Assembly (NCBI GenBank): GCA_949123685.1
Contig: CASBHZ010000080.1
Span: forward strand, 1-13,478
Source of the DNA: an uncultured Bacteroidales bacterium
GTDB taxonomy: Bacteria; Bacteroidota; Bacteroidia; Bacteroidales; Muribaculaceae
Direction of reading: 5' to 3'
DNA: 13,478 nt
In this document: positions 3,281 through 13,478 of the stretch, piece after piece
Numbering within the stretch: position 1 is the stretch's first letter
How the letters are laid out: every line of letters begins with the position of its first letter
Translations under genes and position numbers: made by a program
The notes under the pieces: model-generated
What the model saw: only the letters and a program-made list of their open reading frames with translations
What the model was told of the DNA's origin: nothing
The model's database searches: none

Positions 3281-3316
3281 GTCTGATTTAGTCTACAGAG
3301 TGTCCGTAGTAGCAAG

Positions 3317-3717
3317 TGGAGCTGGAGGGGATTGAACCCTCGTCCAAACGCGGAACCAATAAGCTTTCTACATGCTTAGTCTGTGGATTGGTTTTCATGA
3401 CAGGACAAGCCCACGACAGCCAATCCTATCCTTAGTTCCTAAATCTCGGGAACACGTCGGAACTCCGCAATCCCTATTTCCGAATTTCTCTGCACCTCCT
3501 TGTCCAAACGTCTCGGAACGGGGCAATGGGGAGATGTCTCGTTCACCTCACTTTGAGGCGAATAAAGGAACCCTACTGTACTTCAGGTTACGCAGCGAGA
3601 GCGTAATTGTTATTTTCGCCAATTATAGGTCGACGCTTTTGCGATTATAGAGCTTAAACGCCAAAGCTCTGCATGCTTACCTACCGCTTCTACACGCTGT
3701 CAAAGCCAATCAGCCCC
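3317..3717 (-). ncRNA. ssrA: Transfer-messenger RNA (tmRNA)
   Basis: The RNA rescues stalled ribosomes by acting first as alanyl-tRNA, then as a template for a degradation tag. Its 5' end is GGGGCUG (3717-3711), pairing with CAGCUCC (3324-3318) as acceptor stem. The T arm reads GAGGGTTCAATCCCCTC just before the 3' end. The tag frame from 3620 to 3588 encodes GENNNYALAA and ends in TAA. Its C-terminal YALAA is the usual protease-recognition form. Length is about 400 nt. The genome reads A-CTT after the acceptor stem, so CCA is not encoded and must be added. It has its own promoter and terminator. The integrase gene lies downstream of its 3' end, suggesting that the element uses this end as its attachment site. 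Confidence 0.95.
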
Positions 3718-9157: not shown

Positions 9158-9706
9158 TTATTTTTTTGCCATAGGCATCATCCCGGTCTCGGAAATATAT
9201 GCCATCATGCCCTGTTCCGTAAGATCCACAAGCATGAAATCGCCATCCGGCTTCACCATCTTGACATGACCCTCGTCTACAAAAGTCATAAATGGCATAA
9301 GCTCTCCCTCATTGTTTTCAAAAGCCCAAGTCTGAGTATCCTCTATAAACTCGAGACGCGTTTTTTCACCCGTCTCGGAAAGAGTGATAGTGTAGCCCTT
9401 TCCATCACAATCGATCAGATAACGCCCATGATCCGTATCTACAGCCTTTGTTGATGCTGTCATCGGATTAGTTCCACTCCAAAACTCTATTGAATTAATT
9501 ACCAATAAATCAGCTATACTTGTAACTTCATATACCGGGAGGATCCAAAAAGCGAAAAACACAAGCTCATTAACAAACTTATTACCTACCTGACGATTCC
9601 ATGACAACACTTTATTGGTCATCGCAAACGAACCGATGCATGAGGTGAACACCATCGATGATCCCGCCAACAAAATCGCGGCTACAGCTATCTTAAACTT
9701 CTTCAT
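9158..9706 (-). CDS. DUF3332-family lipoprotein
   Basis: The protein has 182 residues. A lysine start (MKKFK) and hydrophobic core lead to a lipobox-like VFTSC with C23 as the probable lipidated cysteine; phenylalanine at -3 is unusual for a lipobox. The family block follows: GSFAMTNKVLSWNRQVGNKF (25-44), VNELVFFAFWILPVYEVTSI (45-64), then LLVINSIEFWSGTNP (67-81), a hydrophobic region that may dip into the membrane. The remainder is a beta-rich domain (GRYLIDCDGKGYTITLSETG and onward). DUF3332 has no assigned function; envelope location is inferred. It is transcribed towards the YtxH/holin genes and may serve with them in envelope maintenance. Confidence 0.88.
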   Translation of the reverse strand: MKKFKIAVAAILLAGSSMVFTSCIGSFAMTNKVLSWNRQVGNKFVNELVFFAFWILPVYEVTSIADLLVINSIEFWSGTNPMTASTKAVDTDHGRYLIDCDGKGYTITLSETGEKTRLEFIEDTQTWAFENNEGELMPFMTFVDEGHVKMVKPDGDFMLVDLTEQGMMAYISETGMMPMAKK

Positions 9707-9851
9707 ATGGGTTGGTTTAGTTAATACTTAGAAGCGCATAAGCATATCGGGTCATTAATTAAAATCATACATACCCAAATCTCAAATACACATTCTATAT
9801 TTATTTAACAGGTTGTAAATTTAATAATATTTTTCTGCATTTCATATTTTT

Positions 9852-10007
9852 AAGTAAGTAATAAAAATTAATACACATATAAAACGCCGTTATTTTTGAG
9901 ATGTTTTTGCCGCGTAATGAAGAAGCATATAGGCATATGAGACTGAATTACAAGGCGAAAACAGCAAAAAAAGAACAAGTTTTATAGGGCGAGATTTCAT
10001 TACTTAC
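9852..10007. repeat. Self-complementary element, copy A
   Basis: About 156 bp that can fold over almost its whole length. Stems from outside in: GTAAGTAAT (9854-9862) with ATTACTTAC (9999-10007); TATAAAAC (9878-9885) with GTTTTATA (9979-9986); GTT (9889-9891) with AAC (9974-9976); TGTTTTTGCC (9902-9911) with GGCGAAAACA (9954-9963); GTAAT (9914-9918) with ATTAC (9947-9951); and an apical hairpin CATAT (9926-9930) with ATATG (9935-9939). The single-stranded shoulder reads GAAGAAG before and AGACTGA after the apical hairpin. It encodes no protein. It could be a MITE-like element or a structured RNA; I recognise no known family. Confidence 0.7.
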
Positions 10008-10025
10008 ATATATCGATTAATTTTT

Positions 10026-10210
10026 AAGTAAGTGACCCCATTAAACACATATCATAAACGCAGCTATTTTTGAAAGATTTTCCTGTGTTGATAAAGGAGC
10101 AATGCGGGCATTGCGACTGAAGAAACACGGGAAAAGGTTCAAAAAAGAGCAAGTTGATGATATGTGAGATTAAAATCATTTTATTATCGTTTTAATGGGA
10201 TCACTTACTT
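10026..10210. repeat. Self-complementary element, copy B
   Basis: About 185 bp with the same architecture as copy A. The termini AAGTAAGTGACCCCATTAAA (10026-10045) and 10191-10210 are inverted repeats matching at 19 of 20 positions. Inner stems: CACATATCAT (10046-10055) with ATGATATGTG (10157-10166); GCT (10063-10065) with AGC (10148-10150); TTTTTGAA (10067-10074) with TTCAAAAA (10138-10145); TTTTCCTGTGTT (10078-10089) with AACACGGGAAAA (10124-10135); and an apical hairpin GCAATG (10099-10104) with CATTGC (10109-10114). The shoulders AAAGGA and GACTGA resemble those of copy A. A further end-like ATTACTTACTT follows at 10211-10221, just before the umuC stop. Confidence 0.75.
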
Positions 10211-10227
10211 ATTACTTACTTATTCAA

Positions 10228-11502
10228 TTAATCTCTCTTATGATCAACATTGTCCGAGACCGGAGCCCCGAACGAAGAGATGTAACCTTCATTATGCCCC
10301 ATATGTCCATTAGTAAGCTGCGATGCAAGCTTAACCACATGATCAGAAACACCGAGATTCAGATTGTCAACAACTTTCATCAGATTCCTTGACCTTGATA
10401 TCCTCAGTCTACCTTCGGATATGTCATCAAACAAGGAAAGTGAATTTGAACCGCGTGGAACTATTTTAGACAATATCACCCCTGCCCTTTTATATTTAAC
10501 CACCGGATTGAAAATATGTTCAAGACATTTTACCGCCGCAGACGTAATAATTGCAGAGTCATCTATCGGAACTGAAAAAACGACCGAAGCTTTTGGCGTA
10601 TAATATCCCTTCTCTACATGAAACCTGTTCGTATGCAAAAAGACCGACAACTCTCCGCACTCTCCCTCCATAGCCCGCAAGCGCTTAGACACGTGAGCAC
10701 AATAACTTGCTATACGCGACCGTAGATAGTCAAAATCATCCACATCTTCCGGAAATGTCCGAGTCTCGCTAATGGAATCCTGCATCTTACGGGACACATG
10801 TTCCAATTCTATGCAAGGTACACCATGCAATTCCTGCCAGCTCCGTTCACCCGTGACACCCATTTCGCCACGAACCCACACAAGAGACTTACGAAAAAAA
10901 TCTCCTATGGTATAAACACCCTTGGCATAAAGACGTTTAGAAAGTCGCCTGCCCACGCCCCATAATTCCCCTACAGGAATATTGTCGAACAATGACACAA
11001 GCTCATCCGTCATTGAAACCGATACAACTCTCTCTCCTCTCTTTTTACCCATCTCGGCGGCAATCTTCGCAAGTGTCTTGGTAGGAGCGAAACCTATTGT
11101 GACAGGTATACGCTCCTCTTCCCAACAAGCGTTGCAAATAGCCTCCCCTATTTCAGGTATTACATCATCCGGAATCCCGGTCATGTCAAGAAACGACTCA
11201 TCCACCGAATAGTCGATCGTATTCGGAACGAACCTCTTGAAGATAGAATGAACCTTCAGGCTCTTTTCTTTATATAGCACATGATTTCCAGAGTATGCAA
11301 CAATCTTACCGGAATAAATGAGATCCCTTATTTCAAAAGCAGGTTGTCCCATCTTCACCCCGATCTTTTTTGATTCGTTACTCCGGGAAATCACACAGCC
11401 GTCATTATTCGACAGCACTACCATCGGCACGCCTTCAAGTTCGGGATTGACGGACCTTTCACATGAAACAAAAAAATTATTACAGTCAGCAAGACCTATC
11501 AT
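10228..11502 (-). CDS. umuC: Y-family DNA polymerase, UmuC (Pol V catalytic subunit)
   Basis: UmuC copies past DNA lesions during the SOS response, normally with a UmuD' dimer. The protein has 424 residues, the same length as E. coli UmuC. The palm/fingers region shows catalytic D6 (GLADCNNFFVSCER), VVLSNNDGCVISRSNESKKI (28-47), which separates UmuC from DinB, and catalytic D101-E102 (YSVDESFLDM). A helix-hairpin-helix thumb (VGELWGVGRRLSKRLYAKGV, about 177-196) and the little-finger domain follow. The C-terminus carries SLSLFDD, a possible beta-clamp-binding-like motif. The start is 2 bp after the recQ stop (TAG, AA, ATG), so the two form an operon. No umuD is in the window. The copy A/B hairpins lie immediately downstream. 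Confidence 0.95.
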   Translation of the reverse strand: MIGLADCNNFFVSCERSVNPELEGVPMVVLSNNDGCVISRSNESKKIGVKMGQPAFEIRDLIYSGKIVAYSGNHVLYKEKSLKVHSIFKRFVPNTIDYSVDESFLDMTGIPDDVIPEIGEAICNACWEEERIPVTIGFAPTKTLAKIAAEMGKKRGERVVSVSMTDELVSLFDNIPVGELWGVGRRLSKRLYAKGVYTIGDFFRKSLVWVRGEMGVTGERSWQELHGVPCIELEHVSRKMQDSISETRTFPEDVDDFDYLRSRIASYCAHVSKRLRAMEGECGELSVFLHTNRFHVEKGYYTPKASVVFSVPIDDSAIITSAAVKCLEHIFNPVVKYKRAGVILSKIVPRGSNSLSLFDDISEGRLRISRSRNLMKVVDNLNLGVSDHVVKLASQLTNGHMGHNEGYISSFGAPVSDNVDHKRD

Positions 11503-13430: not shown

Positions 13431-13478
13431 AGATCGGAAGAGCACACGTCTGAACTCCAGTCACGCGATAGTATCTCG
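13431..13478 (+). other. Illumina TruSeq-type adapter with index (contamination)
   Basis: From 13431 the sequence reads AGATCGGAAGAGCACACGTC and continues through TGAACTCCAGTCAC (to 13464), the standard Illumina read-through adapter. An 8-nt index, GCGATAGT (13465-13472), and the start of the constant tail, ATCTCG (13473-13478), follow. It is technical sequence left at the contig end, so genomic sequence stops at 13430. Confidence 0.98.

Follow-up and report, generated by a model that had tools for sequence, protein, structure and literature searches.

Bacterial MITEs are usually viewed as deletion leftovers that are held together by their ends alone. The two elements described here, A and B, are most like the MITEs of the IS630/Tc1-mariner group, which target TA: they are 183 bp long and gene-free, lie between TA duplications and have terminal inverted repeats (TIRs) in common with IS630-family transposons of the same bacterial family. 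Unlike the three IS630 loci that we found, however, A and B have as their body a conserved, covarying hairpin with tandem G.A pairs. IS5-family insertion sequences (ISs; PF13340 plus PF01609, TNA target) and their MITEs share with the present family the GA.. ends, the TTA, TCA or TAA duplications and, at both ends of seven IS copies, the same core, whereas other IS5 copies lack the structured domain of ∼105 nt between TIR and gene. The RNA-processed MITEs Correia/NEMIS and ERIC are likewise palindromic and intergenic and form RNA hairpins, but we know of no covarying internal motif in them that sits under the ends of different transposase families. REP/RAYT and IS200/IS605 hairpins also stand beside a short purine tag, but the elements bearing our core have TIRs and DDE-type ends, show no co-occurrence with Y1 and have no significant replication-strand bias. 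Within the Bacteroidales, the Porphyromonas gingivalis MITEs (MITE239, MITEPgRS and BrickBuilt) have IS5-type ends, a likeness taken from their description. Long stem-loops have been predicted for BrickBuilt, but these arise from its own direct repeats, and the accessible part of that report describes no such core (PMC4596501). Titles and abstract openings in the Bacteroidota MITE literature, in which subscription papers are thinly covered, yielded no description of this core, and no conserved core of its type is described in the accessible parts of PMC9769881, PMC4596501 and PMC10969869.

The window, a 13,478-nt stretch of one contig from an uncultured Muribaculaceae bacterium, encodes RecQ, a Y-family DNA polymerase (10228-11502) and a DUF3332 protein (9158-9706), all in one direction, and the 521-base gap between the DUF3332 and polymerase genes is the site of both A and B. 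The closest relatives identified via the polymerase, L001 and L002 (both titled Muribaculaceae; 76% and 73% identity), are the two closest syntenic relatives and have the same gene order with a short gap, from which the element is absent and in which there is no model match. The contig ends (window 13431-13478, start approximate) in what we take to be Illumina TruSeq adapter sequence (AGATCGGAAGAGC...), which also supplies MLFRS, the residues with which the RecQ frame opens, and the frame end RSEEHTSELQSRDSIS. Elsewhere in the window, a tmRNA gene (3316-3717, minus strand; tag GENNNYALAA) adjoins a mobile-element-like stretch with a tyrosine integrase (1587-2831) and a DUF4099 protein (1-714).

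Element A occupies 9853-10220 on the plus strand and is interrupted by B, so that its 183 bp are the joined pieces 9853-10026 and 10212-10220. Element B (10027-10209, plus strand), also 183 bp, lies inside the right terminal repeat of A, between the two copies of its TA target-site duplication at 10025-10026 and 10210-10211; that of A is found at 9851-9852 and 10221-10222 (no strand is assigned to either duplication). The outer repeat of A is perfect over 14 bp (9851-9864/10209-10222), and the inverted repeat of B spans 10018-10045/10191-10218. Removal of B and one TA would leave a 183-bp A that is flanked by TA dinucleotides and whose outer ends read TAAGTAAGTAATAA...TTATTACTTACTTA, and an uninterrupted A-like copy in another genome (L121) has a right end that reads like that of A minus B. 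Because B interrupts the right terminal repeat of A, the two are nested and not in tandem; of the tandem small RNA that the initial annotation had offered as one option, the arrangement is thus wrong, though a small RNA is conceivable. That annotation had recognized both elements, at 9852-10007 and 10026-10210, limits that are replaced by those that the TA duplications set. An equivalent nesting occurs in the other TIR class, at a TTA within the right terminal repeat of L154. Neither A nor B has an internal open frame of ≥60 aa (the frame 10195-10392 overlaps the right end). Both are short, non-coding elements with TIRs and a TA on either side, and relatives carry up to 94 matches to our refined covariance model, R2. 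The MITE-like family suspected earlier is borne out.

Both elements had been described as near full-length self-folding units, and their folding energies agree with this: -40.5 kcal/mol for A (z -6.1) and -73.8 kcal/mol for B (z -10.3), with 0 of 200 shuffles as good in each case. The complementary strands of A and B also fold (z -7.8 and -9.5). On the 5' side the two elements are 73% identical over 62 nt; their stem sequences diverge with pairing kept. The structured core, ∼105 nt in the family, is placed by R2 on the plus strand at 9868-9995 in A (73.5 bits, E 2.1e-15) and at 10042-10169 in B (97 bits, E 4.5e-21), matches that hold partly by construction, since A and B are both among the 50 sequences of the model. 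Read on the plus strand, the core consists of an outer stem, a short internal loop, an inner stem, two GA dinucleotides with 1 to 3 Watson-Crick pairs between them, a hairpin of 6 bp and, on its far side, GA-(pairs)-GA. The apical hairpin of A with its shoulders lies at 9919-9946 (plus strand; GAAGAA at 9919-9924 and GACTGA at 9941-9946), and that of B at 10093-10120 (plus strand), where AAAGGA, the arm GCAATG, the cap CGGG, the arm CATTGC and GACTGA follow one another.

Compensatory change was already present in 19 of 22 pairs in a first seed of 13 sequences. Model R1 gave matches in at least 32 of the 59 genomes sampled from the Muribaculaceae (the family of G001, source of L001) and in at least 6 of 198 genomes of an order-wide sample, two of which (G001 and G028) are also in the family sample, and R2 gave matches in at least 2 of 395 genomes of a phylum-wide sample; these counts are lower bounds because searches over 40 genomes used stricter filters, with few candidates scored per genome. 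With laxer filters, four chosen genomes had 22, 94, 34 and 44 matches. A sequence-only alignment of 50 cores, A6, was dereplicated at 80% identity and omits 7 of 57 dereplicated rows (L216:2270, L093, L135:210, L004:8595, L249, L202:1238 and L240 minus), which we judged misanchored, decayed or redundant, an omission that favors a clean result. Paired cells make up 87.5% in A6 versus 65.6% in shuffles, the covariation score is 0.602 versus 0.216 (reached by 0 of 500 shuffles; sliding control 0.14-0.19), and both sides have changed in 22 of 23 pairs; the shuffles ignore relatedness and the structure was derived from the same 50 sequences, two concerns that dereplication and the sliding control lessen, not fully. 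Selection on the single-stranded fold of the core, which the initial annotation had read from the paired change of both arms in two copies, is well supported by these sequence comparisons. That annotation had named a lack of homologues, or homologues without covarying stems, as evidence to the contrary; what we found were homologues in many family genomes and stems that covary. It knew of no matching family, and likewise no Rfam family (4227 searched, gathering threshold) covers the window's elements or those of 10 loci of the family. Plasmid and phage collections gave no core match at E 0.1, and three viral contigs carried an exact motif. A AAGTAAGT-type copy is present on two contigs labeled viral (L255 and L256), which may be prophage or mis-binned chromosome.

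The motif GACTGA had been noted as conserved and unpaired. The motif stands, but it is not simply unpaired: GACTGA faces an upstream GAAGGA to give tandem G.A, one to three Watson-Crick pairs and again tandem G.A. In the GACTGA/GAAGGA form two Watson-Crick pairs lie between the G.A tandems, and covariation of the middle pair is seen across the family: GAAGGA occurs with GACTGA, GAGGGA with GACCGA, GAGGA with GACGA, and GAAGCGA with GAGCTGA. In the 57 anchored cores, which include a few wrong anchors (L216, L135:210, L240 minus strand and L227), the bases between the tandems are AG/CT in 23, GG/CC in 16, G/C in 8, AGC/GCT in 1 and other in 9, 33 cores keep all four of their GA dinucleotides, and the hairpin is capped by CGGG in 30 and by CGAG in 15. 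A (GAAGAA) and B (AAAGGA) are each one base off the G.A consensus. A variant core with three positions between the tandems is that of L229, L237 and L241 in genome G083; in L229 it reads GAAGCGA/GAGCTGA.

The fold is strand-specific, with 93 G-T versus 27 A-C cells, or 69 versus 27 without the base pair at the foot of the apical stem, an excess that is inflated because G-U was allowed during structure prediction. The pair at the foot of the apical stem is most often G-U (24 of 50) and never A-C, which favors RNA. These details bear on the idea that the cores are functionless quasi-palindromes, carried as MITE passengers, whose arms would owe their match to template switching at replication forks. 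Such a process would accommodate the palindromic form common among MITEs, the drift of copies within genomes and the existence of core-less copies. Template switching would, however, erase mismatches, yet the tandem G.A is complete in 41 (upper) and 35 (lower) of the 50 cores of A6, a G-U pair is kept in 24 of them, the pattern being confined to a single strand, and the spacing of one, two or three pairs between the tandems is compensated. Since template switching would not keep G.A mismatches, it leaves this pattern unexplained, and we consider it an improbable account.

Three other candidate features were considered and rejected. A hammerhead-like CTGATGA is present in some copies only, and a mini-ORF over ATGCGGGCATCGTGA is missing from copies with TAGCGGGCTA. 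A Bacteroidetes -7 promoter, TANNTTTG, at the outer stem suits, by eye, several AAGTA-type copies and not others.

The AGTAAGT ends of A and B match five of the six ends of three IS630-family transposons (L257-L259) found in the 59 related genomes. Each of these five ends agrees with one or more of three MITE TIRs at 21 to 24 of 26 positions, the best match being 14 to 19 in 100 pieces of 3.4 kb each from one family genome and, for one TIR only, 14 to 18 in 40 other loci. A TA duplication points to the IS630 group. By their TA target and AGTAAGT ends, A and B are thus IS630-type MITEs of the non-autonomous kind, and B evidently transposed into the right end of A. Matches to Pfam DDE_3 are rare (3 of 59 family genomes), and the same Pfam search found none in the high-copy genomes G012 and G036, so these genomes may have lost their source element, or it may have escaped assembly. 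None of the three IS630 loci has the core, and the MITE body therefore does not derive from these loci; the true parent may be another element.

Other core copies have GA-type ends with 3-bp TNA duplications, a combination found in part of the IS5 family. Among the MITE copies of genome G056 the duplications, read by eye, are TCA/TCA (L146 and L148), TAA/TAA (L157) and, in most, TTA/TTA, with L147, the plus copy of L149 and L156 as exceptions. What we label a third end type, GG..TTCTATAAATT, is found in 4 of the 50 analyzed cores. The ends of L229, L237 and L241 are like GTAACTGTTTAAATTT, intermediate between two TIR classes. A tree of the cores groups the end types, and its starred branches force the AAGTA type to have changed at least three times; a single origin of that type is not rejected, however (AU p 0.19), and we therefore do not claim repeated end-swapping.

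Cores frequently occur in head-to-head pairs, as in L081, L083, L029, L011, L114, L117, L120, L126, L127, L131, L133 and L135, and genome G293 has at least 11 such pairs among the 66 matches listed of 94. In L122 the two cores lie on either side of an IS5-type transposase frame, with PF13340 and PF01609 over the cut-off. A search of 247 family genomes with the L212 transposase as query returned 18 loci in 12 genomes, 12 of which have L212-type ends or sequence. Seven of these 12 (L262, L263, L266, L267, L269, L271 and L274) carry the core at both ends, inverted and reading inward; four have one core (L261, together with L264, L268 and L273, these three cut by contig ends), and one, L265, also contig-cut, has none. 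The remaining 6 of the 18, with GAGGGTGTTTCATAAC ends, have no core. Among the IS5 loci tested with the model, nine (eight distinct places) had no core; G293 has both kinds, L263 with the core and L275-L278 without. The placement of the core in the L212-type loci makes it an end domain of one IS5 group. By their layout, two-core MITEs look like internal deletions of this core-bearing group, and single-core MITEs look like copies that keep one end. Since the core also occurs with IS630-type ends, the ends must have changed at least once, exchange between transposase families being read from shared cores beneath different ends.

In G036 (contig C11, near 804711 and 807017; L203), two terminal repeats are directly joined in core-less palindromes of 48 and 36 bp, which, amid many full copies, are possibly the end stage of a MITE. 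A separate locus, L201 (1028-3510), has two 45-bp inverted GA-type ends that enclose three host-like genes, by eye CDP-alcohol transferase-like, HAD-like and GtrA-like. We rejected its reading as a cargo transposon, the unequal target bases (TCA/TTA) suggesting that these are probably two separate small copies.

Across 143 copies there was no orientation bias to neighboring genes (upstream 73 versus 69, downstream 73 versus 68), and the four gene arrangements were about equal (40, 36, 32 and 32), in a count that uses crude open-frame calls and includes both members of head-to-head pairs. The absence of bias makes it less likely that the core acts strongly in cis on host transcripts. One could suppose that, as RNA, the core regulates in cis the host genes beside each insertion, serving as a terminator, stability element or leader: the 143 copies have open frames close by on both sides (at medians of 45 and 32 nt past the trimmed flanks), and the accessible part of PMC10969869 describes Correia and ERIC MITEs as cut by RNases within mRNA. 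Besides the even gene arrangements, the patchy presence of the core, in 32 of 59 family genomes and in neither L001 nor L002, speaks against such a role, which we think quite improbable.

Replication gave no significant bias in G036 (co 22 versus anti 16, p 0.42; TA skew, 38 of 44 matches) or in G293 (co 14 versus anti 25, p 0.11; GC skew, 39 unpaired among the 66 matches listed of 94), and the two trends run in opposite directions. This lack of significant bias counts against the main rival reading, in which the core would act as single-stranded DNA, the hairpin of an exposed end presenting the terminal repeat or recruiting a factor and so raising transposition. IS630 and IS5 enzymes, moreover, work on double-stranded ends, and domain-less copies exist. 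The strand asymmetry of the fold and the same inward polarity at both IS ends are in keeping with single-stranded DNA, the absence of gene-orientation bias fits a role in mobility, and tandem G.A pairs form in DNA too; on balance we regard this reading as rather unlikely, if less so than the other alternatives. The suggestion in the initial annotation that the family is mobilized through its folded form found no support: the ends are DDE-type (TIR with a duplication of TA or TNA), some IS copies lack the hairpin and no consistent replication-strand bias was seen. In some elements the core is dispensable for movement, to judge from the core-less IS630 and IS5 loci and the core-less derivatives of 36 to 48 bp in G036.

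Many copies have GGA(G) immediately 5' of the apical hairpin, and Y1_Tnp is found in 31 of 59 family genomes, as might be expected if a Y1 (RAYT) transposase moved the cores as REP-like repeats, with GGAG before the hairpin as the tag. The TIRs and target duplications are, however, DDE-type, and Y1_Tnp occurs in 17 of 32 core-bearing versus 14 of 27 core-less genomes (Fisher p 1.0), which leaves this explanation with very little probability.

Within genomes, single stem transitions kept the pair in 12 of 25 cases in G056, 8 of 12 in G036 and 10 of 15 in G012, and double changes with the pair kept numbered 4 in G036 and 14 in G012. Stems change more than unpaired sites in G056 (0.0205 versus 0.0092) and more slowly than unpaired sites in G036 and G012, a mild constraint. 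Together, the absence of a link to gene strand, the absence of significant replication bias and this drift within genomes suggest that it is the lineage of the element, and not the adjoining host gene, for which the fold is important.

Our best explanation is that A and B are IS630-type MITEs with a fold-selected end domain shared with one group of IS5 elements, which would act as RNA on inward transcripts; as a whole, we think it about evenly balanced between right and wrong. The anatomy of the elements and the core, as read from the alignments, is very probably correct. The RNA mechanism is more tentative, and we hold it somewhat less likely than not. It proposes that the acting molecule is an RNA made as transcription enters the element from its end and that a host factor would bind or cut the folded RNA; entering transcripts would then neither express nor disturb the element, a form of shielding. 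Selection may act on actively transposing lineages more than on individual genomic copies. More generally, it is possible, and we propose it with reserve, that the hairpin with double tandem G.A is a fold-dependent, strand-specific end module of DDE transposons that has been traded between unrelated transposase families (IS5 and IS630).

A fold that is kept down to its non-canonical pairs and their spacing, in many genomes and with at least two transposase types, suggests that something reads the folded strand. If the end-module reading is true, some cut-and-paste elements would need a structured RNA or single-stranded DNA beside the TIR and transposase, and the success of MITEs would be selected through the fold. 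The family offers a tractable system for asking if DDE transposons make use of a structured domain of RNA or DNA; a covariance model is now available for finding tens of repeats per genome in one gut-bacterial family.
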